In this document: in pieces, positions 1,038-16,732 of the stretch
Layout: every line of letters starts with the position of its first letter
Numbering within the stretch: the stretch's first letter is position 1
From: Solirubrobacterales bacterium
Lineage (GTDB): Bacteria > Actinomycetota > Thermoleophilia > Solirubrobacterales > Solirubrobacteraceae
Direction of reading: 5' to 3'
Assembly: GCA_019240655.1 (NCBI GenBank)
Contig: JAFAXX010000007.1
Coordinates: 1 to 47,090, forward strand
Length of the DNA stretch: 47,090 bases
Notes under the pieces: model-generated
Seen by the model: the letters and a program-made list of their open reading frames with translations, nothing else
Databases searched by the model: none
Told to the model about the DNA's origin: nothing
Made by a program: the position numbers and the translations under genes

Positions 1038-1039
1038 GC

Positions 1040-1576: not shown

Positions 1577-2964
1577 AAGCGGTTGGCGCAAGGCTTCCAC
1601 GCTACGACGGGCTCGCGCACACGACGGGCCGCACGGTGTACGTCGACGACGTGCGCGTCGCCGGCACCCTCGTCGCCAAGGCGCTGCGCTCGCCTCACCA
1701 CCATGCCGCGATCACGCGGATCGATACGAGCAAGGCGGAGAAGCTCCCGGGCGTGCGCGCGGTGGTCACCGCGGCCGACGTGCCCAAGAACGTCTACGGG
1801 CATCTCGAGGCGCTCGGCGTCCCGGCCGACGAGCCGCTCCTCGCCGACGGCGAGGTCCGCTACCGCGGTCAGCCGGTCGCCGCCGTCGCCGCCGAGGACG
1901 TCGAAACCGCGCACGAGGCGGTGGCGGCGATCGAGATCGAGTACGAGGAGCGTCCCGCCCTGTTCGACATCCGCAAGGGGCTCGATCCCGACGCGCCGTC
2001 GATCCACCAGTGGGGGCCGGTGTATCCGCATTTCGGGCCCTACAACCACCGGCGGGTGCGCAAGGGTGACGTCGAGTGGGCGTTCGAGAAGGCGGACGTG
2101 ATCGTCGAGGGCGCCTACCGGCCCGCGGCGATCGAGCACTGCCCGCTCGAGACCCAGATCGCGCTCGTGGTTCCCGAGGCCAGCGGGCGGCTGACCGTAT
2201 ACACGTGCACGCAGGCGATGTACTTCTCGCTCGGGGTGATCGCCGCGCACCTGCAGGTGCCGCTGAACCGGGTCAAGCTGATCGGCGGCACGGTGGGCGG
2301 CGGCTTCGGCGGCAAGGTCGACACGGCGGCTGAGACGATCACCTGCCTGCTGGCGCTCAAGGCGCACCGGCCGGTCAAGTGGCGCTGGACGCGGGAGGAG
2401 GAGTTCCTGGCCTCCTCGACGCGCGCCCCGTGGCACATCGAGATCCAGGACGCGGTCTCGAACGACGGCTGGATGCTCGGCCGGCGGATGCTCACCCTGC
2501 ACGACGCCGGCGCCTACGCGCGCTTCTCCCCCTACGGGCTGACCAAGCACGGGTTCCATCACACCGGCGCGTACACGATCCCGAACGTCCACTTCGACGG
2601 CTTCGTCGTGTTCACCAACCGCGTGCCGACCACGGCGATGCGCGGCTTCGGCGTGACCTCGGTGTCGATGGCGGTCGAGCTGCAGATGACACGGATCGCC
2701 GAGACCCTGGGGCTCAGCCCGTGGGAGCTGCGGCTGAAGAACGCCAACCGCATCGGTGACACGACCGCCAACCGGGTGGTAATGCAGGATCCCTCGACGG
2801 TGCCGGTGACGCTGGCCGCGGCCGAGCGGGTGGGCGAGCGGCTCGGGCCCGAGTACACCGCGATGACCCCCGCGCGCCGCAGCGGCGAGCTCCTGCCCGA
2901 GCACCTGGCCGCTCAGCAGGCGCCCGAGGGCGCGCATGTGCTTAGCAACGGAGGGAGGTCCTGA
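1573..2964 (+). CDS. Molybdenum hydroxylase large subunit, N-terminal half (split Mo subunit)
   Basis: The 463-aa protein covers the a/b hammerhead domain and first Mo-cofactor domain of the xanthine dehydrogenase family. GGGFGGK (residues 242-248) and RGFG (357-360) are the pterin and active-site loops. The usual large subunit is about 750-800 aa in one chain. Here it ends cleanly at a TGA that overlaps the ATG of a second gene encoding the rest. Both halves keep their motifs, so this looks like a genuine two-protein subunit, as in nicotinate dehydrogenase NdhL/NdhM of Eubacterium barkeri. The ATG at 1573 overlaps the 2Fe-2S stop. Confidence 0.9.
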   Translation: MKAVGARLPRYDGLAHTTGRTVYVDDVRVAGTLVAKALRSPHHHAAITRIDTSKAEKLPGVRAVVTAADVPKNVYGHLEALGVPADEPLLADGEVRYRGQPVAAVAAEDVETAHEAVAAIEIEYEERPALFDIRKGLDPDAPSIHQWGPVYPHFGPYNHRRVRKGDVEWAFEKADVIVEGAYRPAAIEHCPLETQIALVVPEASGRLTVYTCTQAMYFSLGVIAAHLQVPLNRVKLIGGTVGGGFGGKVDTAAETITCLLALKAHRPVKWRWTREEEFLASSTRAPWHIEIQDAVSNDGWMLGRRMLTLHDAGAYARFSPYGLTKHGFHHTGAYTIPNVHFDGFVVFTNRVPTTAMRGFGVTSVSMAVELQMTRIAETLGLSPWELRLKNANRIGDTTANRVVMQDPSTVPVTLAAAERVGERLGPEYTAMTPARRSGELLPEHLAAQQAPEGAHVLSNGGRS

Positions 2965-4058
2965 TGGCCAGGCACCAGGGTCGCGGGTTTGCGACGATCG
3001 AGTACCCCACCGGGATGAACCAGAACGGGGATCCGACCCAGGCCTGGATCAAGCTCAAGCCCGACGGACGCGTCGACGTCTTCTCGGGCACGGTCGACAT
3101 CGGCCAGGGCTCGAAGACCGTCCACACGCAGATCGTCGCCGACACGCTCGGCGTGCCCTACGACTGGGTGACGATGGACAACTCCAATACCGACTCCTCG
3201 GCGGTGTGCACCGGCACGTTCGCCTCGCGCGGGACGTTCATCGGCGGCAACGCGGTCCGCTTCGCCGCCGAGCGAGTGCGCGAGCGGATTCTCGACATCG
3301 CCTCCAAGGAGCTCGAGATCGATCCCGGCGACCTCGAGATCGCCGACGGCGAGGTGGTGGCCAAGGGCGCCCCGAACCGAAAGATCTCGGTCGCCGACGT
3401 GGCCGGGGCGGCGACCTACAACTACGGCGAGTTGATCTCGGGGCAGGGCACGGCGCTGAAGCCGTTCGCCGAGGTCAACGACGACGACGGGTCCGTACAG
3501 GCCGAGCCGCACTCGGCCGTCTCCTACGCCGCCTGCGTGGCTGACGTGGAGGTCGACGACGAGACCGGCGAGGTCACCGTCAGCCGCCTGGTCCAGGTGT
3601 ATGACGTCGGCCGGGCGATCAATCCGGTCCTCGTCGAGGGCCAGATCGAGGGCGGGGCGATGATGGGCCTCGGGCTCGGGCTGCTCGAGGAGTCCTATCC
3701 GCACTATCCCTCGGCCGAGCACCGCGGCGAGCAGTTCGGCGCCTACCTGGCCCCGGCGATCGAGGACCTGCCGGAGCTCGACAACGTGATCCTCGAGAAT
3801 CCCTCCGTCGACGGCCCGTTCGGGGCCAAGGCGATCGGCGAGATGGCCAACAACGCGCAGCCGCCCGCGATCGCGGCGGCGATCCACGACGCGGTCGGGG
3901 TCTGGGTGACCGAGTATCCGGCCACTCCGGAGCGCGTGCTACGGGCAATCAAGGCCCGGGCACAGCCGCGCCGCGAAGGCAAGCGGGTCATCTTCGACGA
4001 GGAGATCTCGTTGCGCACGGTCTCGGCCAACGGCGGCGCCGGCTTCCTGGAGGTCTGA
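2964..4058 (+). CDS. Molybdenum hydroxylase large subunit, C-terminal half (split Mo subunit)
   Basis: The 364-aa protein is the second Mo-cofactor domain of the xanthine dehydrogenase family. It starts with an ATG overlapping the TGA of the upstream half, which suggests translational coupling and one-to-one assembly. GQG (residues 47-49) is a pterin-binding loop. GAKAIGE, with E293, matches the catalytic glutamate motif. Together the two halves make 827 residues, near a full-length Mo subunit. It is the medium-subunit (NdhM-like) counterpart of nicotinate dehydrogenase. The substrate is unknown. Confidence 0.9.
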   Translation: MARHQGRGFATIEYPTGMNQNGDPTQAWIKLKPDGRVDVFSGTVDIGQGSKTVHTQIVADTLGVPYDWVTMDNSNTDSSAVCTGTFASRGTFIGGNAVRFAAERVRERILDIASKELEIDPGDLEIADGEVVAKGAPNRKISVADVAGAATYNYGELISGQGTALKPFAEVNDDDGSVQAEPHSAVSYAACVADVEVDDETGEVTVSRLVQVYDVGRAINPVLVEGQIEGGAMMGLGLGLLEESYPHYPSAEHRGEQFGAYLAPAIEDLPELDNVILENPSVDGPFGAKAIGEMANNAQPPAIAAAIHDAVGVWVTEYPATPERVLRAIKARAQPRREGKRVIFDEEISLRTVSANGGAGFLEV

Positions 4059-4462
4059 TGAGCACTGGTGAAGCCACCTCACCGTTTGCGGATTGGGAGG
4101 GCCGGGAACCGCTGTCGCTCTTCCCGCGGGTCTCGCTGCACTCGATCGGCGGCGAGCAGGTGCTGCTCTGCCGCGTGCGCTACGAGCCCGGGGCGGAAGT
4201 CCCGCGCCACTCCCACGAGCACACCGAGCAGGTGATGTACGTGTTCGAGGGCGAGGTCGAGATGACGGTCGGCTCGGAGCGGAGGACCCTGCGAGCCGGT
4301 GACACCGTGGTGGTCAACCGCGGCGTCGAGCACGAGCTGCGCTCCGCGGGCGGATGTCAGTTCTTCGAAGCGCTGTCGCCCGTCCCGCTCGACCACGTCG
4401 CCGACCCCGAGCGAGACCTGGTCCTCGGACCGGACGGCGGCAGCCGGCACGTCGAGCGCTGA
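4058..4462 (+). CDS. Small cupin-domain protein
   Basis: The 134-aa single-domain cupin has the metal-binding motif PRHSHEHTEQVMYVFEGE and a second motif GDTVVVNRGVEHEL, so the histidines for a metal site are present. It begins within the stop codon of the Mo subunit half and is therefore part of that operon. Small cupins next to catabolic enzymes often act as isomerases, dioxygenases or ligand sensors, and the sequence does not decide between these. The stop codon lies inside a 24-bp tandem duplication. Confidence 0.85.
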   Translation: MSTGEATSPFADWEGREPLSLFPRVSLHSIGGEQVLLCRVRYEPGAEVPRHSHEHTEQVMYVFEGEVEMTVGSERRTLRAGDTVVVNRGVEHELRSAGGCQFFEALSPVPLDHVADPERDLVLGPDGGSRHVER

Positions 4463-4739: not shown

Positions 4740-4997
4740 ATGACCGAGGCCGAGATCCGGGGCTCGACGACGATCATCGAGTTGCTCAAGCGCTACCCGG
4801 ACGGACGCGCCGCCCGGCTGATGAGCGATCTGAACTGGGCCTGCGCCCACTGCGGAGGCGCCTTCCACGAGCCGCTGACGATGGCCGCCAAGCGCCACGC
4901 TCGCGATCCGATGGCGGTGCTCCACGCCTTCCGCGCGCTCGAGCAGGGCGGCCCGTCGCCCGACCAGGTCGAGGCGGCGCGGCGGATGGTCGAATAG
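4740..4997 (+). CDS. DUF1858-like small protein with CxxC
   Basis: The 85-aa product reads TIIELLKRYPDGRAARLMSD followed by a CAHCGG motif (C35, C38) and a helical end. This resembles the DUF1858 fold found alone and at the start of ScdA-like proteins. A TACCCT box (4725-4730) lies 9 nt before the ATG with no clear Shine-Dalgarno sequence, so it may be leaderless and separate from the upstream operon. The CxxC could bind a metal or act in redox; function is unknown. Confidence 0.7.
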   Translation: MTEAEIRGSTTIIELLKRYPDGRAARLMSDLNWACAHCGGAFHEPLTMAAKRHARDPMAVLHAFRALEQGGPSPDQVEAARRMVE

Positions 4998-5010: not shown

Positions 5011-5617
5011 GACCGTCGAGTGGGGCCGCGCTGCGCGCGGCGTCCAGCCGGATGACGCGCGGCCGGCCCGGCCGTGGCGAGGCCGGATGCCGAGCGGGCC
5101 GTGCCGCGCGGCCGGCTACTCCGGGCGTTGTGCGTTCGAGTCGCTTTGGTCTCTCGGGTTGGGCTGCCGGCTGGCGCCTCAGCCCGCGGGCTGCGGGCGC
5201 AGCCCGGGTGGGTGAGCTGCCTGGTATTGGGGCGGTGAAGGGTGGGGTGCGGGGGCTTCGCCGACCATAACGTGGAAACGCGCGATGTCGGCACGGCGCT
5301 GTGTCACTTTACGGTCGTCCTGCGCCCACAACGTGAATCGCGCGAGGCACGACTGGCGCTCTTTCCACGTTATGGTCGTTCCCCGACCCTTCACTGCCAA
5401 ATACCGCGCAGTCCAACCAACGGGGCTGCGGCCGCAGGTCGGGCTGAGGCGCCAGCCGAAAGCAAAACCCGAGAGACAGGAAGCCACACGACCTGAAAAC
5501 GCCCGGAGTAGCCGGCCGCGCGGCACGGCCCGCTCGGCATCCGGCCTCGCCACGGCCGGGCCGGCCGCGCGTCATCCGGCTGGACGCCGAGCGCAGCGAG
5601 GCCCCTATGAGACGGTC
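5011..5617. repeat. Long inverted-repeat element (~250-bp arms, ~80-bp centre)
   Basis: The gap between the DUF1858-like gene and larE is one large imperfect palindrome. The outer segment 5038-5129 is identical over 92 bp to the reverse complement of 5498-5589. The arms continue inward with lower identity to GACCATAACGTGGAAA (5263-5278), matched by its complement at 5362-5377. They also extend outward to GACCGTC (5011-5017) and GACGGTC (5611-5617), so the right end covers the last codons of larE. No protein gene is convincing inside. It could be a MITE-like non-autonomous element or a regulatory palindrome; nothing proves mobility. Confidence 0.85.
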
Positions 5618-6417
5618 GTCACCGGCAGCGCGACGGGGCCATTGAGCGAGCCTGACCGGAACGGGCGGGGGCTGAGCTCGGCCTCGTGATAGCCCGCGGC
5701 GCGCACCGCAGCCAGCACCGGCTGTGGATCGCCGAGCGCCCGCGGCAGCTCTTCGGCGGCCAGCTCGACCCGTCCCCGCCGCCCCAGGTGACGAACCCGC
5801 AGGACGCGGAATCCCAGGGCCCTGACCGCCCGCTCGGCTCGATCGACCTGGGCAAGCGCCTGAGGGGTCACCGCCGTGCCGTAGGGCAGCCGTGAGGCCA
5901 GGCACGGCGAGGCCGGCTTCTCGGCGCTGGGAATCCGCAGCTCGCGGGCGAGCGCGCGGACTCGCTTCTTGCCGACGTTCGCCTCGAGCAGCGGGTGGCG
6001 GACTCCGTGCTCGGCGGCGGCGCGCAGCCCCGGCCGCCAGTCGCCGGCGTCGTCGGCGTTCGCGCCCGAGAGCACCACGGCGTACCCCTCGGCCCGGGCG
6101 AGCGCCCCCAGCCGGTCGTACAGCTCGGTCTTGCAGTGGTAGCAGCGATAGCGATCGTTGCGGCGATACTCCTCACGGGCCAGCTCGTCGGTCGTGATCA
6201 CGCGGTGGGCGATCCCGATCGCCGCCGCGACCGCTTGGGCGCCCGGCAGCTCGCCGGTGGCCAGAGCCGGCGACACGGCGGTGACGGCGACGGCGCGATC
6301 CCCGAGCGCACGCGCGGCGATCGCCGCCACCAGCGAGGAGTCGACCCCGCCCGAGAACGCGACCACGGCGCTGCCGAGCGGGCGAATCAGCTCCTCCAGT
6401 TGCGCGGTGCTCGTCAT
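5605..6417 (-). CDS. larE: ATP-dependent sacrificial sulfur transferase LarE
   Basis: The 270-aa enzyme of the PP-loop ATPase family adds sulfur to the pyridinium dicarboxylate mononucleotide during NPN cofactor synthesis. The PP-loop SGGVDSS (residues 22-28) is intact. C172 in SPCLASR is the conserved cysteine that gives up its sulfur in the Lactobacillus plantarum enzyme. CYHC (C92, C95) is also present. It is the third gene of larB-larC-larE; its ATG overlaps the larC stop. The last codons lie within the right arm of the long inverted repeat. Confidence 0.92.
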   Translation of the reverse strand: MTSTAQLEELIRPLGSAVVAFSGGVDSSLVAAIAARALGDRAVAVTAVSPALATGELPGAQAVAAAIGIAHRVITTDELAREEYRRNDRYRCYHCKTELYDRLGALARAEGYAVVLSGANADDAGDWRPGLRAAAEHGVRHPLLEANVGKKRVRALARELRIPSAEKPASPCLASRLPYGTAVTPQALAQVDRAERAVRALGFRVLRVRHLGRRGRVELAAEELPRALGDPQPVLAAVRAAGYHEAELSPRPFRSGSLNGPVALPVTTVS

Positions 6418-7607
6418 CTCAGCTCGCGCGCGGCGGCGAGCGCCGCGGACCAGACGAACTTTACCGGCGCACCGATCTCGCGGGCCAGCGCGGCGCAGTC
6501 GTCGTGCTCGGGGGCGACGTTGACCACGCGCCCGTCCAGACGGGCCAGCTTGATCCTCACCGCGTGCCCGTCGATCTCGACGGTGCGCTCCTCGCGCTCG
6601 AGCTCATACCGGCGCATCGGCACGATCCGGACTCCGAGCGCGCTCGTGTGCTCGAGCAGCGCCCGTGCCACCGCCGGCTCCGCGTCGGGGCGGGCGAGCG
6701 CGGAGAGGACGACGCCGGGCCGGCCCTTCTTCATCGTCACCGGCGCCGTCCACACGTCGAGCGCACCGGCGGCAAAGCAGCGCTCGACGGCATCGGGTAC
6801 GAGCTCGGGGATGAGGTCGTCGAGGTTGGTCTCGAGCACGACCACCTGCCCGCGGGGCTGAGCGCCCGGCGCGCCGGACGCGTCGCCGATCAGCACGCGC
6901 ACCAGGTTGGCGCGGTCGCGGAAGTCGGCCGTCCCGGCGCCGTAGCCGATCGCCCGCAGCGACATCGCCGGCAGCGCGCCCCAGCGGTCGGCCAGCGTGC
7001 TGGCAATTGCCGCGCCCGTCGGCGTGACCAGCTCCGCCTGCAGGTCGACGCCGAAGATCGGCGCGCCGACGAGCAGGGCCGCGGTGGCCGGTGCCGGCAG
7101 CGGCAGCACACCGTGAGCCGTGCGCACCACCCCGCCGCCGATCGGCAGCGGCGAGCACACGAGCGTGCTGACACCGAGATCGTCGAGCAGCGCGATCGCG
7201 CCGACCACGTCGACCAGCGTGTCCTCGGAGCCGAGCTCGTGGAAGTGGATGTCGTCGGGCGCCACGCCGTGGACCCTGCCCTCGGCCTCGGCCAGCCGCT
7301 CGAACACGGCTAGCGCCCGCTCTCGCACCCGGTCTGGGAGCTCCGCGTCGGATAGCCGGCGGCGGATCGAGCGCCAGCTGCGATGGGGATGGTCGTGGTC
7401 GTGAAGGTCGGGCGTCGGGAGCGCCACCTCGAGGTGCAGCGCGCCGACGCCGTGGCGCTGTACGCGGCTCACGTGGAGCTCGACCCCCGCGAGCCCGATC
7501 GAGCGGGGTACCTCACGCAGCGCGGTCTCGGAGGCGCCGGCGTCGAGCAGCGCGGCGATCAGCATGTCGCCGGCCAGCCCGCCGGCGCAGTCGAGGTAGG
7601 CGATCAC
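6414..7607 (-). CDS. larC: Pyridinium-3,5-bisthiocarboxylic acid mononucleotide nickel chelatase LarC
   Basis: The 397-aa protein inserts nickel into the pincer nucleotide in a CTP-dependent step. The start YLDCAGGLAGDM and the histidine-rich HDHDHPH (candidate nickel ligands) are typical. The C-terminal domain (ETNLDDLIPE, TMKKGRPG) is fused in one frame. In L. plantarum the gene is read by a programmed frameshift as larC1/larC2, whereas here it is continuous. The GTG at 7607 overlaps the larB TGA and is preferred over the much longer upstream open frame, which runs antisense through larB and beyond. Confidence 0.92.
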   Translation of the reverse strand: MIAYLDCAGGLAGDMLIAALLDAGASETALREVPRSIGLAGVELHVSRVQRHGVGALHLEVALPTPDLHDHDHPHRSWRSIRRRLSDAELPDRVRERALAVFERLAEAEGRVHGVAPDDIHFHELGSEDTLVDVVGAIALLDDLGVSTLVCSPLPIGGGVVRTAHGVLPLPAPATAALLVGAPIFGVDLQAELVTPTGAAIASTLADRWGALPAMSLRAIGYGAGTADFRDRANLVRVLIGDASGAPGAQPRGQVVVLETNLDDLIPELVPDAVERCFAAGALDVWTAPVTMKKGRPGVVLSALARPDAEPAVARALLEHTSALGVRIVPMRRYELEREERTVEIDGHAVRIKLARLDGRVVNVAPEHDDCAALAREIGAPVKFVWSAALAAARELR

Positions 7608-8362
7608 CCGCGGCCCCGGGCGATCCGCGCGGCGATTGTGCCCGCACCGAAGCCGTCGTCGATCCCGACCACGGCCAGGGACGCCGCGCACGAGGTGAGC
7701 ATCGCGTTCAGCGCCGTGCGCCCGCCGTCGGCGGTGCCGTAGCCGACCGAGGTTGGCACTCCGATGACCGGAGCGGCCACGAGGCCGCCCACCACGCTGG
7801 CCAGCGCCGCGTCCATCCCGGCCACCACGACCACGCAATCGGCCCGCTCGAGGTCGGGCAGGGCGGAGGCGATCCGGTGCAGGCCGGCCACCCCGACGTC
7901 CTCGTGCACGACGACCTCGGTGCCGAGCAACTCGGCGCGCACGCGCGCCTCGTGCACGACCGCGCCGTCGGAGGTGCCGGCGGAGACGATCGTCACCACG
8001 CCGCGCGGCTCGGGCACCGCCCGGGTCAGCCACACGAGGCGTGCTCGCTCGTGCTCGTGCGCGTCCGGGGCCACCTCGCGCACCGCCCGGCGCGCGTCGG
8101 CGTCGGCGCGGGTGACCAGCACGCTCCCGGCTCCGCCCGCCACCATCGCCTCGACGATCCGGGCAGTCTCGGCCGGCGTCTTGCCCTCGGCCAGCACCGC
8201 CTCGGGCGCGCCCTGGCGGAGCTCGCGATGGACGTCGGCGCGGGCGAAGCCGAGGTTTCGAAACGGCAGCCCGGCGAACTGCTCGAGCGCCGCCGACGGC
8301 TCGACCTCGCCACGGCGCACGCCCTCGAGCAGCGCCTCGAGCTCGTCTCGAAGTCCCGGCAT
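7604..8362 (-). CDS. larB: Pyridinium-3,5-biscarboxylic acid mononucleotide synthase LarB
   Basis: The 252-aa protein carboxylates and hydrolyses nicotinic acid adenine dinucleotide, the first step to the NPN cofactor. It has the PurE-like C-terminal domain with GTSDGAVVHEA, HEDVGVAGLHRI and VVVAGMDAALASVVGGL. The ATG at 8362 gives the usual short helical N-terminus (MPGLRDELEALL). An ATG six codons upstream (8380) is an alternative. It is divergent from the CoA-ligase operon, which ends in a LarA-like gene. Confidence 0.92.
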   Translation of the reverse strand: MPGLRDELEALLEGVRRGEVEPSAALEQFAGLPFRNLGFARADVHRELRQGAPEAVLAEGKTPAETARIVEAMVAGGAGSVLVTRADADARRAVREVAPDAHEHERARLVWLTRAVPEPRGVVTIVSAGTSDGAVVHEARVRAELLGTEVVVHEDVGVAGLHRIASALPDLERADCVVVVAGMDAALASVVGGLVAAPVIGVPTSVGYGTADGGRTALNAMLTSCAASLAVVGIDDGFGAGTIAARIARGRG

Positions 8363-8380
8363 CCCGGAGAGGGTACGCAT

Positions 8381-8417
8381 GGGGCGCCGTCGCGGGCGCG
8401 AGCATAGAATGCCGCCG
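8381..8417. promoter_or_regulatory. Overlapping divergent promoter between larB and the CoA-ligase operon
   Basis: TAGAAT (8405-8410) lies 7 nt before the ligase ATG at 8418, the distance expected of a leaderless start. On the other strand TATGCT (8406-8401) faces larB. The two boxes overlap, so the divergent transcripts could share control or compete. This is read from sequence only. Confidence 0.4.
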
Positions 8418-9986
8418 ATGGTTCTGGGCCGCGCGTTGAGCTGGACCGCCGAGCGATACCCGGAGCACACGGCCGTGGCCGGCGAGCGCCCGCTCACCTA
8501 CCGCGAGTGGGACCGGCGCACCAACCGCCTGGCCCGGGCGCTCGCGGAGCTCGGCGTGCGGCGCGGCGGGCGGGTGGCGATCGTCGCCGGCAACGGCGAG
8601 CCGCTGTCCAGCACGCACCTGGCGGCCAACAAGCTCGGCGCCGCGTCGGTCCCTCTCAACGTGCGCTACGCCGCCGACGAGCTGGCCTACTGCCTGAAGG
8701 ACGCCGAGCCGGCGGTGCTGCTGAGCGACGACTCCAGCGCCGATCTCGTCACCCGGGCGCTCGCGCAGCTCGAGGGCCCCGCGCCGGTGATCGTGCACGC
8801 CGGCGAGAACCCGCCCGAGGGCTGCCGGCATGGGCTCGAGCGGCTGATCGAGGCGGCCTCCGACGGAGCGCTGGACGTTCCCGTCGGGCCCGACGACATC
8901 AGCGTGATGCTGTACACGGCCGGTACCACCGGCCGGCCCAAGGGCGTCCCGCGCCGCCAGCACGCCGAGGTCTCGGCCGGACTGGCGCACACGATCCAGG
9001 CCAGATACGGGTTCGGCGAGGCGACCCTGTGCGCGATGCCCATGTACCACACGATGGGCCTGCGCTCGCTCGTCTCGATGGTGCTGGTCGGCGGCAAGCT
9101 AGCGTTCCTGCCCGCGTTCGCCGCCGGGCCCGCGCTCGAGGCGATCGCGCGGGAGCGGCTCACCGCGCTTTACCTGGTGCCCACCGCGTACTGGTCGCTG
9201 CTCCAGCAGGCGGGGGTGGAGCAGGCGTGCGCGAGCGTCTCGAAGCTGGCCTACGCCGGCGCGGCGATGACCGCCAACCTGACCGGCAAGCTGGCCGAGG
9301 CGGTTCGCCCCGAGGTATTCATCAACCACTACGGATCGACCGAGGTGTACACGTTCAGCGTCGAGGCCGACGCGGCGGCGCGACCGGGAAGCGCGGGCCG
9401 CCCCGGGCTGTTCACGCGCTTGCGCCTGGTCGAGCCGGATCCGGGGCGGCGGGTGGGCCCCGGCGAGGAGGTCGCCGCCGGCGAGACCGGCGAGATCATC
9501 GCCTCGCTCACCTCCGACGAGGCGTTTGCGGGCTACTGGCAGCGGCCCGACGCCAACGAGCGCGCGCTCCGGGACGGCTGGTACTTCACCGGCGACCTCG
9601 GCGAGGTGGACGAGGAGGGCAACCTGCACGTGTCCGGGCGTGTCGACGACATGGTGATCAGCGGCGGAGAGAACGTCCACCCGCTCGAGGTGGAGGACGC
9701 GCTCGCGCGGTGCCCCGCCGTCGCCGAGGTGGCGGTCGCCGGGCTCCCCGACGACAAGTGGGGACAGGCGGTGACCGCGTTCGTGGTCAGCCCCGGCGAG
9801 GGCGAGCCCGCCCGGCGGGCGGAGGAGATCGCCAAGTGGACGCGGGCCGAAAGCGGCCTCGCCGCGTACAAGCGCCCGAAGCGGATCGTCGTGCTCGACG
9901 AGATCCCCAAGAGCCCGGTGGGCAAGATCCTCCGGCGCGAGCTCGTCGCCGGTGAGTACGAGCCCCGCGGCGAGGCGGCGCCGTGA
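8418..9986 (+). CDS. AMP-forming acyl/aryl-CoA ligase
   Basis: The 522-aa member of the acyl-AMP-forming family has the ATP loop YTAGTTGRPKG (residues 166-176), the YGSTE motif, the hinge YFTGDLGEVDEEG and the catalytic lysine K503 in VGKILRR. It would convert a carboxylic acid to its CoA thioester in the cytoplasm. It opens an operon with Mo-hydroxylase subunits and an enoyl-CoA hydratase, so the acid is probably the pathway substrate or an intermediate. An ATG at 8409 is in frame but sits inside the probable -10 box. The stop overlaps the next GTG. Confidence 0.9.
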   Translation: MVLGRALSWTAERYPEHTAVAGERPLTYREWDRRTNRLARALAELGVRRGGRVAIVAGNGEPLSSTHLAANKLGAASVPLNVRYAADELAYCLKDAEPAVLLSDDSSADLVTRALAQLEGPAPVIVHAGENPPEGCRHGLERLIEAASDGALDVPVGPDDISVMLYTAGTTGRPKGVPRRQHAEVSAGLAHTIQARYGFGEATLCAMPMYHTMGLRSLVSMVLVGGKLAFLPAFAAGPALEAIARERLTALYLVPTAYWSLLQQAGVEQACASVSKLAYAGAAMTANLTGKLAEAVRPEVFINHYGSTEVYTFSVEADAAARPGSAGRPGLFTRLRLVEPDPGRRVGPGEEVAAGETGEIIASLTSDEAFAGYWQRPDANERALRDGWYFTGDLGEVDEEGNLHVSGRVDDMVISGGENVHPLEVEDALARCPAVAEVAVAGLPDDKWGQAVTAFVVSPGEGEPARRAEEIAKWTRAESGLAAYKRPKRIVVLDEIPKSPVGKILRRELVAGEYEPRGEAAP

Positions 9987-12442
9987 CGGTCACCGCGCCG
10001 CCCGCGGCGCCGCAGGAGACCGCCGGCCGCCACGTCGGTGCCGCGGTCGAGCGGATCGAGGACCCGAGGTTGCTGGTCGGCCGCGGAGGTTTCATCGATG
10101 ACCTCGATCCGATCCCCGGCGCGCTGGAGGCGGCGATCGTGCGCAGCCCCCACGCGCACGCCCGCATCACCGCCTTTGACGCCGCGAGGGCGCGGCGCGC
10201 GCCCGGCGTGCGCTGCGTGATCGGGCCGGCTGAGGTCGCGCAGATGCCGCCCTTCCCGCTGACCGTCAAGACGCCGATGCCCTACCGCCCGGCCGCCACC
10301 GACCGCGTGCGCTACGTCGGCGAGCCGGTCGCGGTCGTGGTCGCCACCAGCCGGCACCTGGCCGAGGACGCCGCCGAGCTCGTCGCCGTGGAGTACGAGC
10401 CGCTGACGGCGGTGGTCGACGTGCGCGCCGCGCTGCACCCGGACGCGCCCCGGCTCCACGACGAGGCCGACGGCAACCTCGCCACCGACCGGACGATGCA
10501 GTTCGGAGAGCTCGACGGCGCGTTCGCGAACGCCGACGCGGTCGTCGAGGGCAGCTTCTCGTTCCCGCGCTACTCCTCCACCCCGATCGAGACCTACGGC
10601 GTGGTCGCCCACTGGGAGCATGACGGCGCCGGCGACCAGGTCACCGCGTGGTGCAACTTCCACGGCCCGTTCACGATGCAGCCGGTGATCGCCGGCGCGC
10701 TCGGGCTCGCGCCCGGGCAGGTGCGCCTGATCGTCCCCGAGGACATCGGGGGGTCGTTCGGGATCAAGTCGGGCGTCTACGCCTACGTGGCGCTGCTGGC
10801 GATCGCCTCGCGCCACGCCGCCGCCCCGGTGCGCTGGATCGAGGATCGGATCGAGCACCTGCTCGCCAGCTCGGCCGGCAACGACCGCGAGATGGAGTTC
10901 GCTGCCGCCGTCGACCGGGACGGTCGGGTACGCGCGCTCCGTCTCGACCTGATCGACAACGTCGGGGCCTACCTGCGACCGCCGGAGCCGGCGACGCTCT
11001 ACCGCTGCTTCGGCAACCTGACCGGCGCTTACGCGATCGACGCGGTCGCGCTGCGCTCGCGCGCCGTGGTCACGAACAAGGCGCCGACCGGGCTGAACCG
11101 CGGCTTCGGCGGCCAGCAGCTGTACTTCGGCCTCGAGCGCCTGATGGACAAGATCGCCGCCCGCGTCGGCGTCGACCCGGTGCAGCTGCGCCGGCGCAAC
11201 CTGATCGAGCGCGATGCCTTCCCCTACTCGACGCCGACCGGAGGGCAATACGACTCGGGCGACTATGAGGCGGTCCTCGACCTGGCGGTGGCGCGCTCGG
11301 GCTATGAGGAGCTCTGCCGGCGCCGCGACGAAGGACGCCGCGACGGCCGCCTGCGCGGCGTCGGGATCGCCACGATCGTCGACCCCTCGGGGACCAACCT
11401 CGGCTACGTGAGCATCGCCACCCCGCCGGAGCGGCGCGTGCGCGGGCGCGAGAAGTCAGGCTCGACCGAGCACGTCCGCGTGTCGGTCGACGCCGGCGGC
11501 GAGGTCACCGTGATCCTCGGCTCGACGCCGCAGGGACAGGGTCACCGGACCGTGGCCCGGCAGGTGGTCGCCGATCGCCTCGGGATCGACGTTGAGCACG
11601 TGCACGCGCGGGTCGAGATGGACACCGCCACGACGCCGTGGACGGTCTCCTCGGGCAGCTACTCGAGCCGCTTCGCCCCGCTGACCACGAGCGCCGCGAT
11701 CGCCGCGGCCGACCGGGTCGCCGAGGTGCTCCGCCGGGCGGCCGCCGTGTTGCTCGAGTGCGAGGCCGGCGAGCTCGAGCTGGCCGGCGGCCAGATTCGG
11801 GTGGCCGCCGAGCCCGAGCGGGCGGTGCTCTTCCGCCATGCGGCTGGGCTCGTGCACTGGGACCCGGGGATGCTGGACGGCGAGGCGCTGCTCTACGCCG
11901 ACGCGGCGTACACGCCGCCCCAGTCCCGCCACGCGACGACCAACGACGAGATCAACTCCTCGCTCTGCTACGGCTTCGTGGCCGACGTGGTGGCGGTGGA
12001 GGTCGACCCCGAGACGCTCGAGGTCCGCGTCGAGGCGGTCACGTCGGTGCATGACTGCGGGACGGTCCTCAACCCGCTGCTCGTCGAGGGCCAGACCAGC
12101 GGGTCGATCGCCCACGGGCTGGGGGGCGCCACGCTCGAGGAGCTGCGGTACGGGCCGGACGGGCAGATGGTGGCCGCGTCGTTCATGGACTATCTCTGCC
12201 CGACGGCGGCCGAGCTCGGGTTCGAGGTCGCCTTCGACCACGTGGTCACCCCATCGCCGCACACGCCGCTCGGCGCCAAGGGAGCCGCGGAGGGGAGCAC
12301 GATGAGCATCCCGGTCGCGCTCGCCAACGCGGTCAGCGACGCGCTCGCGCCCCTGGGCGTCGAGATCGACCGGTTGCCGGTGCACGGCACCGTGATTCAC
12401 GAGCTGCTGGCCAACCGACAGAAAGGATCCGAATGGCGCTGA
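9983..12442 (+). CDS. Molybdenum hydroxylase large subunit (full length)
   Basis: The 819-aa Mo-cofactor subunit is of the xanthine dehydrogenase/CoxL family in one chain. Visible motifs are GGSFGIK (residues 256-262), RGFGG (373-377), TPQGQGH, and GAKGAAE with catalytic glutamate E770. It lacks the AYxCSFR loop of form I CO dehydrogenase, so CO oxidation is unlikely. The GTG at 9983 overlaps the ligase TGA, and its own end overlaps the enoyl-CoA hydratase start by 10 bp. The FAD and 2Fe-2S partners follow in the same operon. The substrate may be a CoA ester or a free aromatic or heterocyclic acid (inference). Confidence 0.92.
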   Translation: MTVTAPPAAPQETAGRHVGAAVERIEDPRLLVGRGGFIDDLDPIPGALEAAIVRSPHAHARITAFDAARARRAPGVRCVIGPAEVAQMPPFPLTVKTPMPYRPAATDRVRYVGEPVAVVVATSRHLAEDAAELVAVEYEPLTAVVDVRAALHPDAPRLHDEADGNLATDRTMQFGELDGAFANADAVVEGSFSFPRYSSTPIETYGVVAHWEHDGAGDQVTAWCNFHGPFTMQPVIAGALGLAPGQVRLIVPEDIGGSFGIKSGVYAYVALLAIASRHAAAPVRWIEDRIEHLLASSAGNDREMEFAAAVDRDGRVRALRLDLIDNVGAYLRPPEPATLYRCFGNLTGAYAIDAVALRSRAVVTNKAPTGLNRGFGGQQLYFGLERLMDKIAARVGVDPVQLRRRNLIERDAFPYSTPTGGQYDSGDYEAVLDLAVARSGYEELCRRRDEGRRDGRLRGVGIATIVDPSGTNLGYVSIATPPERRVRGREKSGSTEHVRVSVDAGGEVTVILGSTPQGQGHRTVARQVVADRLGIDVEHVHARVEMDTATTPWTVSSGSYSSRFAPLTTSAAIAAADRVAEVLRRAAAVLLECEAGELELAGGQIRVAAEPERAVLFRHAAGLVHWDPGMLDGEALLYADAAYTPPQSRHATTNDEINSSLCYGFVADVVAVEVDPETLEVRVEAVTSVHDCGTVLNPLLVEGQTSGSIAHGLGGATLEELRYGPDGQMVAASFMDYLCPTAAELGFEVAFDHVVTPSPHTPLGAKGAAEGSTMSIPVALANAVSDALAPLGVEIDRLPVHGTVIHELLANRQKGSEWR

Positions 12443-13215
12443 CCGGTGGAGAGTTCCGGCTGGAGCGAGAGCACGACGGACGCGTGGCCGTGCTTACCCT
12501 CTCGCGGCCCGACCGGATGAACGCGATCACCTGGGAGATGCGCGGCCAGATGCTCGAACGCTTCCGCGAGATCGACGCCGACGAGCAGATCCGCGTCGTC
12601 GTGATTCGCCAGGAGGGCGAGCAGTTCAGCCCCGGCGGGGACATCCCCGGGTTCATGGAGGTGGAGCCGCACGAGTTCATCGACCTCGGCCACAACCTGA
12701 CCGCGCCGGCGCGCAGCCCCAAGCCGGTGATCGTGGCGATCGACGGCTACTGCTTCGGCGCCGGGCTCGAGCTCTCGATGTCGTGTGACATCCGCGTGGC
12801 CACCCGCCGCTCGCAGTTCGGCCAGCCCGAGATCCGGCTGGGGATGATCCCCGGCAGCGGCGGCAGCCAGCGACTCGTCCGCTACATCGGCCGCTCGCGG
12901 GCCAAGTACTACATCATGACCGGCGAGCGCTTCTCGGCCGAGGAGGCCCACGCGTGGGGATTGCTCGCCTCGATCGTCGAGGACCGCGAGGGTCTCGAGG
13001 CCGAGGTCAGGCGGATCGTCGAGACGCTGCTCGGCCATTCGCCGCTGGCGCTGCGCATGGCCAAGGAGGTGATCGACGCCGGCGCCGACGGGCCGCTGCA
13101 GACCGGCATCGAGCTCGAGCGCAAGGCGTACTCGCTGCTGCGGGCCACGCACGACTTCGCCGAGGGCGTCGACGCCTTCGTCAACAAGCGAAAGCCCGAG
13201 TTCACCGGCTCGTGA
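12433..13215 (+). CDS. Enoyl-CoA hydratase/isomerase family protein
   Basis: The 260-aa crotonase-fold protein has the oxyanion-hole segment FSPGGDIPGF (residues 65-74). Both glutamates of classic hydratases are present, E113 in GAGLELSMSCDI and E133 in FGQPEIRLGMIPGSGG, with the usual 20-residue spacing. Water addition to an enoyl-CoA is therefore plausible. It lies between the Mo and FAD subunit genes, which ties CoA-ester chemistry to the hydroxylase. AAAGGA precedes the ATG, which overlaps the end of the Mo subunit gene. Confidence 0.9.
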   Translation: MALTGGEFRLEREHDGRVAVLTLSRPDRMNAITWEMRGQMLERFREIDADEQIRVVVIRQEGEQFSPGGDIPGFMEVEPHEFIDLGHNLTAPARSPKPVIVAIDGYCFGAGLELSMSCDIRVATRRSQFGQPEIRLGMIPGSGGSQRLVRYIGRSRAKYYIMTGERFSAEEAHAWGLLASIVEDREGLEAEVRRIVETLLGHSPLALRMAKEVIDAGADGPLQTGIELERKAYSLLRATHDFAEGVDAFVNKRKPEFTGS

Positions 13216-13219
13216 TCCC

Positions 13220-14068
13220 GTGAAGGCAGCGCCGTTTCGCTACGAGCGCCCGCTCGAGCTGGTCAGCGCGCTGACGCTGGTCCGAGACCCCGAGGCCAAG
13301 GCGCTCGCCGGCGGCCAGAGCCTCGTGCCGGTGATGGCGATGCGGCTCGCCCGGCCTCAGGTCCTCGTCGACCTGGCGCGCATCGGCGAGCTCGAGGGGA
13401 TCGAGCGGCGGGACGGCGAGCTGGTGACCGGCGCGATGGTCCGCCAGCGCACGCTCGAGCGATTTGCAGGGCTCGAGCACGAGCTCCCGCTGGTGGCCGC
13501 GGCGCTGCCGTACGTGGGACACCGCGAGGTGCGAAACCGCGGCACCGTCGGCGGCAGCATCGCCCACGCCGACCCCTCGGCCGAGCTGGCGCTGGTCGCC
13601 GCCACGCTACGGGCCCGGATCGAGGCGCGCAGCCTCGAGCGCGGGCGGGAGATCTCAGCCGCGGAGTTCGTCCGGGGTCCGTTCCAGACCGCGCTCGAGC
13701 CCGGCGAGCTCGTGACCGCGGTGCGCTGGCCGACGGCCGGGCCGGAGGACCGCTTCGCGTTCGCCGAGGTGGCCCGCCGCCACGGGGACTTCGCGCTGTG
13801 CGGGGTCGCGGTCCACCTACGCCGGGGGCAGGGACGGGTCGCGCTGGCCCGGGTCGGGCTGCTCGGCGTCGCGGCGGTGCCGGTGGTGCACGAGGTCGCC
13901 GAACAGCTCGACGGCGCGGCGGATCCCGCGGCGGTGGCGGCCGATGTCGCCGGGCAGCTCGAGCCGGCCGGGGACATGCACGCGAGCGCCGGCTACCGGC
14001 GGCGCCTGGCGCGCGTGCTCGTCGAGCGCTGCCTGCGCCAGGCCCTCGGAGGGCCGAGCGGTGGCTGA
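13220..14068 (+). CDS. Molybdenum hydroxylase FAD-binding (medium) subunit, second set
   Basis: The 282-aa CoxM-family subunit has FAD motifs AGGQS (residues 30-34) and TVGGSIAHADP (109-119), both closer to consensus than in the first set. It has the usual length. It starts with GTG 4 nt after the hydratase stop and overlaps the 2Fe-2S gene by 8 bp. It would carry electrons from the second Mo-hydroxylase to an unknown acceptor. Confidence 0.92.
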   Translation: MKAAPFRYERPLELVSALTLVRDPEAKALAGGQSLVPVMAMRLARPQVLVDLARIGELEGIERRDGELVTGAMVRQRTLERFAGLEHELPLVAAALPYVGHREVRNRGTVGGSIAHADPSAELALVAATLRARIEARSLERGREISAAEFVRGPFQTALEPGELVTAVRWPTAGPEDRFAFAEVARRHGDFALCGVAVHLRRGQGRVALARVGLLGVAAVPVVHEVAEQLDGAADPAAVAADVAGQLEPAGDMHASAGYRRRLARVLVERCLRQALGGPSGG

Positions 14069-15266
14069 GGTCAGGCTCACGGTCAACGGAACCGACGTGG
14101 CCCTCGAGGTCGAGCCGCGGCTCACGCTGGTTGACGCTCTCCGCCATCGCCTCGGCCTCACCGGGACCCACGTCGGGTGCGAGCACGGCGTATGCGGCGC
14201 CTGCACCGTGCTGCTCGACGGCGCCGCGGTGCGCTCGTGCCTGATGTTCTGCGTGCAGGCGCAGGGCCACGAGGTGACCACCGTGGAAGCGCTCGGGGAG
14301 GTCGACGACCTCCATCCGCTGCAGGCCGCCTTCCGCCGCCACCACGGGCTGCAGTGCGGGTTCTGCACCCCCGGTTTCCTGATGAGCGCCTACGAGCTCC
14401 TGCGCGAGGGCGCCGACGGGGGGCTCGGCGATGACCGGCTGCGGGAGGAGCTCTCCGGTGTGCTCTGCCGCTGCACCGGCTATGCCGGCATCGTCGAGGC
14501 AGTGCAGGAAGTGGCCCGCGAGTATCCGGACGGACTCCCCGCGCCGAAGGCACTCGGCCGGCCGATCACCGTGCGCCGGTCCGTGCCCCCGCCCGGGGAG
14601 GAGCAGGCCTTGGCGGCGGCGAGCGCGGCCGCCGCCGCGCGGGGACAGGCGGCCGGCGCGCAGACGCACGTCCAGGTCGCCGTGCCCGAGGGCGAGCCGA
14701 ACGAGACGGTCGCGGTGACCACGGCGATCTCGCCCTCGCCGGTGCAGACGTGGGAGCTGATGGCCGACTTCATGCGCCTCACCCGCTGCATGCCCGGCGT
14801 CGAGCTCAACACCGACCACGGCGAGGACACGTATTCGGGGCGCGTCGGCGTCCACCTGGGGCCGATGCGGCTGAGCTTCCAGGGCGCCGCGCGGGTGCTC
14901 GAGCGCGACGGCGAGCGCCGCCGCCTGCGGGCCGTCGCCTCCGGACGCGACGCCTCGGGCAGCGGCGTGCAGGCCGACGTGACGGTGAGCGCCGACCCCG
15001 GGGGCGGCGGCACGGGGACCGCGCTGCGCGCCGAGGCCAAGCTCTACCTGAGCGGCCGCGCCGCCCAGTTCGGCCGCTCGCTGGCCGGGGACGTCAGCCG
15101 CGGCCTGTTCACCGAGTTCGGCGCCTGCGTCGAGCGGACGCTGACCACCGGCGAGGCGGTGACGCCGCGCCGGCTTTCGGGCGCCGCGGTGGCGTGGCGC
15201 CTAGTCCGCGCGCGCGCCGGAGCGCTCTGGCGGCGCGTGCGCGGCCCGGAGGGCGACGCGCCGTGA
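14061..15266 (+). CDS. 2Fe-2S subunit fused to a CoxG/SRPBCC domain
   Basis: The 401-aa product has two parts. Residues 1-160 form a CoxS-type subunit with cluster ligands C40, C45, C48, C60 and C99, C102, C136, C138. After a Pro/Ala-rich linker (about 165-215), residues 216-365 resemble CoxG of the SRPBCC fold (ISPSPVQTWELMADF, MPGVELN, KLYLSGRAAQFGRSL). A basic C-terminal tail rich in Trp and Arg follows. CoxG is usually a separate membrane-anchoring or maturation protein for CO dehydrogenase-type enzymes. Fusion would tether the hydroxylase directly. The GTG at 14061 overlaps the FAD gene. Confidence 0.9.
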   Translation: MAEVRLTVNGTDVALEVEPRLTLVDALRHRLGLTGTHVGCEHGVCGACTVLLDGAAVRSCLMFCVQAQGHEVTTVEALGEVDDLHPLQAAFRRHHGLQCGFCTPGFLMSAYELLREGADGGLGDDRLREELSGVLCRCTGYAGIVEAVQEVAREYPDGLPAPKALGRPITVRRSVPPPGEEQALAAASAAAAARGQAAGAQTHVQVAVPEGEPNETVAVTTAISPSPVQTWELMADFMRLTRCMPGVELNTDHGEDTYSGRVGVHLGPMRLSFQGAARVLERDGERRRLRAVASGRDASGSGVQADVTVSADPGGGGTGTALRAEAKLYLSGRAAQFGRSLAGDVSRGLFTEFGACVERTLTTGEAVTPRRLSGAAVAWRLVRARAGALWRRVRGPEGDAP

Positions 15267-15285
15267 GCTGCCCGCCCTCCGGTGT

Positions 15286-15291
15286 TACCGT
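15286..15291 (+). promoter_or_regulatory. Possible -10 box before the LarA-like gene
   Basis: TACCGT sits in the 50-bp gap between the 2Fe-2S/CoxG gene and the LarA-like ATG, about 25 bp before that start. It may give the last gene a promoter of its own. A good GGAGGAGAG ribosome binding site follows at 15309-15315. Confidence 0.25.
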
Positions 15292-15316
15292 CTAGCCACC
15301 CGGCCCTGGAGGAGAG

Positions 15317-16732
15317 ATGCCCACCCTGAAGATCCCGTTCGAGTCGCTTGACCCGCTGACGATCGGCTCCGCCGGCGACGACAGCAAGGTGTACCGCGAG
15401 GAGCTCGAGCTCGACGTTCCCGAGCAGAACCTGATGGCGGCGATCTATCCGGAGGAGCCCCAGCCGGTTGCCGACGCCACCGAGGCCGCGCGCGCGGCGC
15501 TGGCCGAGCCGATCAGCGGACCGTCGTTTCGCGACCTCATCCGAGGTGGCAAGAGCGTCGCGATCGTGATCGACAACCAGTTCCGCCCCACCCCGACCTC
15601 GAAGCTGCTGCCCGCGGTGCTCGACCTGCTCGAGGCCGAGGAGGTCACCGACGCGTGCGTCATCACGGGCAACGGCAAGGTGTTCCCGCTGTCGGAGTCC
15701 GACGTGCAGCAGAAGGTGGGCCCTGAGAACCTCGAGCGCATGCGGCGGATGGGGATCGGCTTCTTCCAGAACGAGCCCCGCAACGAGGACGCCTATACCT
15801 ACCTGGGCGTGACCTCGCGCGGCACGCCGGTGTGGGTGCACAGCGAGGTGGCTCGGCGTGAGGTGAAGATCGCCATCGGCCACGCCCAGGCCAACCACTG
15901 GGGCTATGGCGGCGGCGGCAAGCTGATCATGCCCGGCGTGGCCAGCGACGAGACGATCGAGTGCAACCACTGCAACTTCACGATGTCGCCGCAGACCCAC
16001 TACGGCGCGCTGGCCGGGCCGATGCGCTCGGACATCGACGAGATCGCCACCATGACCGGCCTCGACTACACGCTGAACGTCCTCCTCGACACCCGGGGAC
16101 GGGTCCTCGAGATTGTCGGCGGTCCCCATCCGGCGGCCCACCGGCAGGCGATCGAGACGTTCAACGACATCTACGCTTACGAGAACCCGGTCAGCGAGAA
16201 GGGGCAGGCGGACATCGCGGTGTGCGGCGTGTTTGCCCCCACCGACCACCTCTTCTTCCACACCGGGTGGGGCTGCATGTCCTCGGACTTCGTGCTCAAG
16301 GACGGCGGCACGGTCCTCTACTGCTCGCCGTCGCCCGGCGTCCACACCGAGGTCGGCGACTTTCCCGGGCTGGCGCTGATGGACCTGATGAAGCCGTACA
16401 TGCCGCCGACTGCCGAGAACTACCAGCGCGTGCTCCGCGACATCCACCACCGCAAGATCCAAATGTGGGCCGGCTGCATCTGGGTGCCGATCTACGAGGT
16501 GATGACGCGCAAGCACCTGACGCTGGTCACACTCGAGGAGAACCTCGAGATGGCGGCCGACATCGGCATCGACGCCACGACCTCGCTCGACGGCGCATTC
16601 GCGGCGGCAATGGAGCGCCACGGCCCGGAGGCCAGGGTGATCGTGCTGCCCTACGCCCGCTACCAGCTGCCCCGCAACGCGATCCGGCTGGAGGCCGAGC
16701 CGTTCCGCTTCCCCCAGGAGGCGCTCCGCTAG
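15317..16732 (+). CDS. LarA-family (DUF2088) nickel-pincer nucleotide-dependent enzyme
   Basis: The 471-aa protein aligns with lactate racemase LarA. GGGGKLIMPG supplies K202, matching the lysine that binds the cofactor (K184 in L. plantarum), and ETIECNHCNF supplies H218, matching the nickel ligand H200. The 16-residue spacing is the same. IDNQFRPTP corresponds to the D-R-P substrate motif. The segment ITGNGK (116-121) falls where LarA has its TGxHR motif with catalytic H108, and no histidine is present. Candidates for H174 are H189 and H194. The length exceeds LarA (~425 aa). The reaction is probably not lactate racemisation. Confidence 0.85.
   Translation: MPTLKIPFESLDPLTIGSAGDDSKVYREELELDVPEQNLMAAIYPEEPQPVADATEAARAALAEPISGPSFRDLIRGGKSVAIVIDNQFRPTPTSKLLPAVLDLLEAEEVTDACVITGNGKVFPLSESDVQQKVGPENLERMRRMGIGFFQNEPRNEDAYTYLGVTSRGTPVWVHSEVARREVKIAIGHAQANHWGYGGGGKLIMPGVASDETIECNHCNFTMSPQTHYGALAGPMRSDIDEIATMTGLDYTLNVLLDTRGRVLEIVGGPHPAAHRQAIETFNDIYAYENPVSEKGQADIAVCGVFAPTDHLFFHTGWGCMSSDFVLKDGGTVLYCSPSPGVHTEVGDFPGLALMDLMKPYMPPTAENYQRVLRDIHHRKIQMWAGCIWVPIYEVMTRKHLTLVTLEENLEMAADIGIDATTSLDGAFAAAMERHGPEARVIVLPYARYQLPRNAIRLEAEPFRFPQEALR

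Follow-up and report, generated by a model that had tools for sequence, protein, structure and literature searches.

What would a nickel-pincer nucleotide (NPN) enzyme be doing at the end of an operon for a molybdenum (Mo) hydroxylase and a coenzyme A (CoA) ligase? The question is raised by contig JAFAXX010000007.1 of a Solirubrobacterales bacterium from soil (GCA_019240655.1; assembly of 4.06 Mb, 91.5% complete, 4.4% contamination), the entire 47,090 nucleotides of which are here called the window. Six + strand genes, from the ligase through to a larA-like gene that is the only Lar_N gene found in the whole genome, lie within 8418-16732 with successive junctions of overlap 4, overlap 10, gap 4, overlap 8 and gap 50 bp, and larB stands head-to-head with the ligase gene, 37 bp separating their start codons. 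An earlier note, made from the letters alone, had described this run of genes and the divergence of larB-larC-larE from it, and both descriptions hold, though its range, while taking in the operon, missed a gene for a small CxxC protein (4740-4997), larE, larC and probably a second Mo-hydroxylase (mo2, 234-4058). The answer that we favour, with a probability of roughly 60%, is that this is a furan-carboxylate catabolic cluster in which the LarA-like enzyme acts at the entry to the route. The genes on which the argument turns are these.

4740-4997, + strand: 85-amino-acid DUF1858-like CxxC protein, near-constant companion of the larA subfamily, from its recurrence across larA genomes
5605-6417, - strand: larE, predicted sulfur transferase of NPN synthesis (TIGR00268, 297.9 bits, above cut-off)
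6414-7601, - strand: larC, predicted nickel insertion; start codon not fixed, about 7601 (TIGR00299 and NF052512 above cut-offs)
7604-8380, - strand: larB (AIRC domain; 75-78% to LarB of loci L049, L050 and L077)
8418-9986, + strand: HmfD-type 2-furoyl-CoA synthetase, alternative ATG at 8409 (46-48% to hmf ligases of Geobacillus, Dinoroseobacter and Cupriavidus)
9983-12442, + strand: HmfA-type Mo subunit of 2-furoyl-CoA dehydrogenase (47-49% to hmf operons, which are 49-55% among themselves; 79% in same-genus genome G010)
12433-13215, + strand: HmfE-type 2-oxoglutaroyl-CoA hydrolase of the enoyl-CoA hydratase (ECH) family (44-49% to hmf ECH proteins)
13220-14068, + strand: HmfB-type flavin adenine dinucleotide (FAD) subunit (37-45% to hmf FAD subunits)
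14061-15266, + strand: HmfC-type [2Fe-2S] subunit fused to a CoxG domain, GTG start (Pfam; same fusion in Streptomyces and Saccharopolyspora, 48-50% over 368-399 amino acids)
15317-16732, + strand: LarA-like NPN enzyme, catalytic residues replaced

What does the Mo enzyme act on? A tblastn search with its Mo subunit against plasmids gave as top matches records of Geobacillus kaustophilus, Dinoroseobacter shibae, Cupriavidus and Paraburkholderia, at 45-49% identity, and in four plasmid surroundings that were fetched the gene order is Mo-FAD-2Fe2S-AMP ligase-ECH, accompanied, varying by record, by UbiD, UbiX, glucose-methanol-choline (GMC) oxidase, LysR, and major facilitator superfamily (MFS) or Liv genes. 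The functions that two papers describe for hmfA to hmfF fit this gene content as an hmf cluster, and the same papers give the chemistry: HmfD forms furoyl-CoA, HmfABC hydroxylates it, opening of the ring leads to 2-oxoglutaryl-CoA, and HmfE releases 2-oxoglutarate (PMC12064950; PMC6678421). Three of the plasmid operons, chosen by hmf gene content and not as experimentally studied Hmf sequences, served as yardsticks; two have UbiD and UbiX nearby, and the third has UbiD on the same plasmid. The window proteins are 47-49% (Mo), 37-45% (FAD), 56% (2Fe-2S), 46-48% (ligase) and 44-49% (ECH) identical to theirs, the yardsticks being 49-55%, 37-50%, 47-66%, 48-59% and 51-71% identical to each other. 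A ligase, a three-subunit Mo-hydroxylase and an ECH-family hydrolase are thus found in one operon, and the proteins are closer to Hmf than to other Mo-enzyme groups; in relatives, hmfA at 45-49% stands clearly apart from its paralogues (41% at most). CoxG is a gene of its own in Geobacillus and came under the same HmfA query match as the Mo subunit in Cupriavidus (H98), and the MFS gene adjoining larA in Streptomyces is 44-48% identical to the MFS genes of the three operons. Aerobic CO dehydrogenase was considered for the Mo enzyme and set aside, the NCBIfam models for it scoring far under cut-off, as was an ordinary hydratase for the ECH protein, its hmf counterpart being described as a 2-oxoglutaroyl-CoA hydrolase. 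Judged by these comparisons, the ligase, Mo enzyme and ECH protein are a furoate (hmf) operon of known type, predicted to take 2-furoate to 2-oxoglutarate.

Is the neighbouring larA tied to that operon? Out of 399 class genomes, among them the window's own, 15 carry the larA subfamily (the others 70-85% identical to the window protein) and 17 carry hmfA (E up to 1e-150). Thirteen genomes have both (G000, G241, G262, G270, G272, G280, G292, G294, G320, G339, G347, G388 and G389), two larA only, four hmfA only (G010, G011, G084 and G362) and 380 neither, giving a Fisher p of 2.9e-19 with related genomes treated as independent. From equal totals and shared handles, the larA, hmfA and CxxC screens are taken to cover the same 399 genomes and to include the 179 used as a control for Lar_N proteins at large. 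In that control 70 genomes have some Lar_N protein, which in seven is of this subfamily. The remaining 63, where many of the matches are weak, do not overlap with the 17 genomes that have hmfA. Nor does any of four same-family genomes with a distant LarA (25-28% identity) have an hmfA above 39%. Among the 396 genomes of a phylum sample, larA (E up to 1e-40) was not found beyond the window's own genome. Other Lar_N-type proteins are common in the class, some of them very weakly similar.

A scan of public records widened the view to 44 larA loci, 62-85% identical, from 42 genomes by record titles (L060 and L067 share one bin, as do L066 and L071), the hosts being Thermoleophilia, Acidimicrobiia, Streptomyces, Saccharopolyspora, and Alpha- and Gammaproteobacteria. 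In 24 of the 44 loci hmfA (at least 44% over at least 400 amino acids) lies beside larA. The genomes of 18 other loci were searched and 15 hold hmfA, at 45-49% and 677-764 bits with next paralogues at 495 bits at most; G785, among these 15, is where L071 comes from and has already been counted, its hmfA lying beside the second larA. The contig of L065 has hmfB, C, D and E genes, and hmfA or the rest of the operon is thereby present in 39 of the 42 public larA genomes (24 + 14 + 1). Twelve hmf loci of genomes from this search were fetched (one, L130, being L071's own), and in six of them larC or larC-larE-larB comes directly after hmfABCDE: the full trio in L134, L136, L137, L139 and L140, and larC only in L135, where the contig ends. 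These six are from proteobacterial metagenome-assembled genomes (MAGs) with larA on another contig, so the link between hmf and the genes for making NPN does not depend on larA being adjacent. The association of larA with hmf is far above chance. The head-to-head layout of larB and hmf recurs in L049, L050, L053 and L077. L053 (CAMDVX010000025.1), titled a Bifidobacterium breve MAG, carries the cluster, and the organism label is probably wrong.

The LarA-like protein has the two-domain LarA fold, and what it has kept and lost within that fold is informative. In 36 aligned rows (the window and 35 of the 44 public loci), with residue equivalences taken from profile alignments, the NPN-binding R90, K202 and H218, which correspond to R75, K184 and H200 of LarA, are present in all. 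The position of D72 of LarA is N87 in 35 rows and H in one, that of H108 is V122 in 34 and I in two, and those of H174 and K298 are N193 and W318 in all 36. The substrate-contact positions Y294 and Q295 are also replaced, so that most contacts to the carboxylate and 2-hydroxyl are gone, while several Arg, Lys and His residues, including H194, H311 and H315, are invariant. None of the NCBIfam LarA subfamilies tried (LarAH5, 6, 10, 14/15/16 and NF033504) reaches its cut-off, the best score being 201 of 500 bits, and lactate or malate racemase was rejected on those scores together with the replaced residues. Because the catalytic residues and most of those that contact an alpha-hydroxy acid are lost, racemisation is disfavoured, and epimerisation of a hydroxy intermediate, as judged from the alignment, is not the best reading.

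The earlier interpretation accordingly divides. It had tied the Mo and NPN enzymes together functionally and had looked to related genomes for absence of the pairing; the pairing is present in them and recurs in dozens of genomes. Its other parts do not survive: the pathway that it took to be undescribed is largely the furoate one, its hydratase corresponds to a described hydrolase, and its epimerised hydroxy intermediate sits badly both with four replaced catalytic positions and most contacts gone and with an hmf route that has no inversion.

The larA subfamily has another companion. On the same strand, 6-558 bp downstream of larA (measured between alignments), the CxxC gene is found in 37 of the 44 public loci; two of the seven exceptions, L061 and L075, are contig ends, and in the seven genomes concerned the gene is elsewhere in three and not found in four (E up to 1e-5), making 38 of 42 public larA genomes with it. 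In the window it is 10 kb from larA. The class sample has it in 16 of 399 genomes, namely all 15 with larA and one of the 384 others (Fisher 2.6e-26, relatives again treated as independent), that one being G362, where hmfA occurs without larA and the CxxC gene is at a contig edge. Invariant in 23 rows are C30, C33, E39, R47 and H48. Pfam at E 0.01 assigns the protein no family; in a permissive scan (E up to 10) 15 of the 23 match DUF1858 (PF08984) weakly, with a best E of 7.6e-5, and a profile search of the PDB gave weak matches only (2k5e at 0.0026 and a zinc-finger protein at 0.0019). We know of no link of DUF1858 with NPN. Titles and the opening parts of abstracts on DUF1858 likewise yielded none. 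The CxxC protein usually goes with this larA subfamily but is not obligatory for it. The proteobacterial larA of L069, L070 and L074 may work without it.

Where in the route might LarA act? In many hmf clusters 2-furoate is the meeting point with a prenyl-flavin decarboxylase pair, HmfF/HmfG. HmfF is a furandicarboxylate decarboxylase of UbiD type, frequent in the hmf clusters of plasmids. With at least 51% identity to the D. shibae protein as the mark of an HmfF-type UbiD, 26 of 37 plasmid records with hmfA carry one, these being the best 37 of 98 (H62-H98, at least 46.6% identity to the query). Of 39 larA genomes (38 public and the window's own) one does, namely G789, where it is 58% identical and beside hmf, other matches being 38% at most. 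No UbiD or UbiX match was found in the window or in the 59 loci searched; a UbiD near larA was therefore dropped as a candidate, the single HmfF-type one, in G789, being close to hmf. No larA is present on the hmf plasmids of Cupriavidus, Dinoroseobacter and Geobacillus, and the notion of larA as a plasmid trait was also dropped, two weak distant matches (E up to 1e-20) being all that appeared, on records other than those with hmfA.

The trees bear on the same point. In that of hmfA the window joins Streptomyces and Saccharopolyspora (100/100), the alphaproteobacterial larA-linked L071, L076 and L080 join larA-free Cupriavidus and Dinoroseobacter, and Thermoleophilia and Acidimicrobiia form another group that includes larA-free G011; in the larA tree the nearest rows to the window are L077, L038 and L039, and larBCE too are closest to relatives of the L077 type. 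Since larA-linked hmfA falls in several lineages and the larA tree differs, the pattern suggests that larA and larBCE form a cassette which has paired up with hmf of different lineages. In same-genus G010 the hmf operon is 69-82% identical to that of the window, and its 8.9-kb contig, which extends 464 bp past the 3′ gene and 1.6 kb past the ligase, has no match to larA or larB; neither larA nor the CxxC gene was found in the G010 genome. An hmf operon with no larA or larB at either side suggests gain of the cassette. With larA-free hmfA lying among larA-linked lineages, larA would be peripheral, not tied to a different hmf substrate, and its role would be one of entry, as is that of HmfF.

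The favoured sequence of events can then be put together. LarB, LarC and LarE would make NPN for one LarA-like enzyme; this, usually with the CxxC protein, would turn a precursor into 2-furoate, which HmfD, HmfABC and HmfE would carry on to 2-oxoglutarate. The precursor might be a carboxylate of furan or tetrahydrofuran, or else a compound derived from a sugar acid, and LarA would take the place held by HmfF/HmfG in many other hmf clusters. As the residues that bind the 2-hydroxyl and shuttle its proton are lost, the enzyme would be expected to use hydride or metal-ligand chemistry other than classical racemisation of 2-hydroxy acids, or a substrate with no free 2-hydroxyl. A more specific proposal, possible and offered tentatively, is of a new class of NPN enzyme, having the LarA fold without the racemase acid/base residues, usually a CxxC partner, and a reaction other than racemisation, its substrate being a 2-carboxylate of furan or cyclic-ether type, that supplies furoate in lieu of the prenyl-flavin decarboxylase. 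A cyclic alpha-oxygen, having no hydroxyl proton, would explain both the loss of the two catalytic histidines and the Trp/Phe in place of polar contacts.

Several points weigh against the favoured explanation. The window ligase and ECH protein fall slightly below the mutual range of the yardsticks. In the class sample G286 and G333 have larA without hmfA, both on short contigs, the public larA genomes of L047, L057 and L062 show no hmfA, and all the genome counts treat relatives as independent. Those of L061, L069, L070 and L074 have no CxxC gene, L069 being a 5.7-Mb chromosome record. The active-site loops (192-201 and 308-316) of a structure model are below 50 in predicted local distance difference test (pLDDT) score and leave the active site unresolved, and the alignment has one gap beside the H174 position. 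The anticorrelation of larA and HmfF is confounded by lineage: the hmf relatives G010, G011 and G084 have neither, 11 of the 37 plasmid hmfA records have neither on the record, and G789 holds both. We infer the upstream position of the LarA step, and with it the substrate, the reaction and the part played by the CxxC protein, and in some lineages the neighbours (GlcDEF-like, IlvD/Edd, fumarylacetoacetate hydrolase (FAH) and short-chain dehydrogenase/reductase (SDR) genes) would suit hydroxy-acid or sugar-acid substrates also.

Those neighbours speak for another explanation, close to the idea of the earlier note, in which the active site of the LarA-like protein has been rebuilt and still epimerises or racemises a 2-hydroxy (sugar) acid, one that GlcDEF-like, IlvD/Edd, SDR or thiamine pyrophosphate (TPP) enzymes convert to a furan or to a 2-oxo acid joining the route. 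In Acidimicrobiia-type loci (L040, L043, L045, L048 and L081) GlcDEF-like genes, whose Pfam domains resemble those of glcD-glcE-glcF, lie between larA and hmfA; L023 has an IlvD/Edd dehydratase and an SDR upstream of larA; other loci have AP_endonuc_2, FAH (2,4-didehydro-3-deoxy-L-rhamnonate hydrolase-like, below cut-off) and SDR genes; and the invariant H194, H311 and H315 could serve as bases. However, the positions of D72, H108, H174, K298, Q295 and Y294 are all replaced, neighbours of sugar-acid type are lineage-specific whereas hmf is general, and the described hmf route involves no inversion of a hydroxy acid, so that we think this explanation unlikely, if a serious contender. An attempt to derive a substrate from the sugar-acid, GlcDEF-like and TPP neighbours resulted in no consistent pathway.

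Might the NPN enzyme instead stand in for HmfF directly, decarboxylating 2,5-furandicarboxylate, or removing the C6 carbon of 5-hydroxymethyl-2-furoate, to give 2-furoate? The scarcity of HmfF-type UbiD in larA genomes relative to plasmid hmfA records, the failure to match UbiD or UbiX in the window and the loci searched, and the several invariant Arg, Lys and His would all suit it. It is nevertheless quite unlikely. We know of no precedent for decarboxylation by an NPN enzyme; the pattern of HmfF is confounded by lineage, three larA-free hmf relatives being also without it; and of the genes for oxidising 5-hydroxymethylfurfural that were tested, the only ones seen near larA were GMC-like (L059 and L063) or, at a few loci, for aldehyde dehydrogenases.

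It is decidedly improbable that LarA acts within the hmf route or downstream of it, in repair or salvage, its target being perhaps the 5-oxo-furoyl lactone or a side product such as 2-hydroxyglutarate. In favour of this, the lactone hydrolase is unassigned or only putative in known clusters, and hmf does occur without larA; but CoA esters are unlike known LarA substrates, and the hmf plasmids of Cupriavidus, Dinoroseobacter and Geobacillus do without larA. Scarcely credible is a chance neighbourhood or hitch-hiking, with LarA serving an unrelated lactate- or malate-type substrate, for though 20 of the 44 loci, many on short contigs, showed no hmfA next to larA, the two co-occur genome-wide even when unlinked, larCEB stands behind hmf operons, genomes with other LarA types have no hmfA, and the residues for binding hydroxy acids are lost.

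At the start of the window is a split Mo-hydroxylase (mo2) like nicotinate dehydrogenase, followed by a cupin.

234-1037, + strand: FAD subunit of mo2 (FAD_binding_5 and CO_deh_flav_C)
652-2964, + strand: mo2 [2Fe-2S] part and first Mo-binding half in a single open reading frame, similarity from about 1031 (Mo domains; 2Fe-2S part by clustering with family F3; same family at 48% in L066 and 42% in L072, and beside hmf in L135)
2964-4058, + strand: mo2 second Mo-binding half, split as in nicotinate dehydrogenase (MoCoBD_2; best PDB match 3hrd_B)
4058-4462, + strand: cupin, overlapping the mo2 stop codon (Cupin_2)

Members of the mo2 family lie some 10 kb or less from larA in L066, L072 and L070 (where one half is seen, at the edge of the locus), and beside hmfABCDE and larC in L135; mo2 is probably part of the same supercluster. 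In Yoonia (L107) the family keeps company with MoxR, VWA, lactonase-like amidohydrolase, isochorismatase, SDR and FAH genes. Two MAGs have two larA copies each (L066 with L071, and L060 with L067), and in the first of these hmf accompanies one copy and mo2 the other. Elsewhere, a heliorhodopsin gene lies between larA and larE in G280 (L030, 6596-7405), and in the larA/hmf locus L034 a weak NicO-like gene (nickel transport, below cut-off) comes directly after larE (12114-12836).

Why might this matter? In two papers, the NPN enzymes of known activity racemise or epimerise 2-hydroxy acids, and the role of LarA homologues that have no catalytic residues is left open (PMC7583248; PMC12611868). A literature search, partly of titles and the opening parts of abstracts among the matches listed, found no paper linking NPN or LarA with furans, and it is on this that the claim to novelty rests. 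A furoate-linked, residue-depleted LarA suggests a new use of a rare cofactor. What such homologues do can now be put to the test, since this subfamily offers a pathway to look at, that of furoate catabolism, a partner protein found with most members, and isolates with names, Streptomyces iranensis DSM 41954 and Saccharopolyspora subtropica. Furans are important in biomass and 2,5-furandicarboxylic acid (FDCA) technology, and the subfamily may also represent a further, new way by which they enter catabolism.

How, finally, does the cluster compare with what is known? With the hmfABCDE operons of Cupriavidus basilensis HMF14, P. pseudoalcaligenes and P. umsongensis GO16 it shares the same five proteins, 37-56% identical to hmf-type plasmid operons, along with a CoxG domain, transporters of MFS or Liv type and, in many relatives, hmfA-B-C-D-E in that order after larA; it differs in that HmfF/HmfG (UbiD/UbiX) are missing and larA, the CxxC gene and larBCE added, in its order D-A-E-B-C, and in the fusion of CoxG to HmfC. 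The CxxC protein has a CxxC pattern in common with DUF1858, the window member scoring 15.4 bits against a gathering score of 32.2. To the racemases LarA_Lp, Mar2 and LarA_Ip the LarA-like protein is 17-27% identical, and it is set apart from them by having no equivalents of D72, H108, H174, K298, Y294 and Q295, by its usual CxxC partner and by its furan context. The single-histidine LarAHs LarA_Bw and LarA_Sp (9q3j, 9q3k) have Asn aligned with His174, as here, but retain the first histidine, whereas the window protein, distant from them in sequence, has neither and so falls outside their group; their genomic context is glycolysis genes, while that of the window LarA is furoate.

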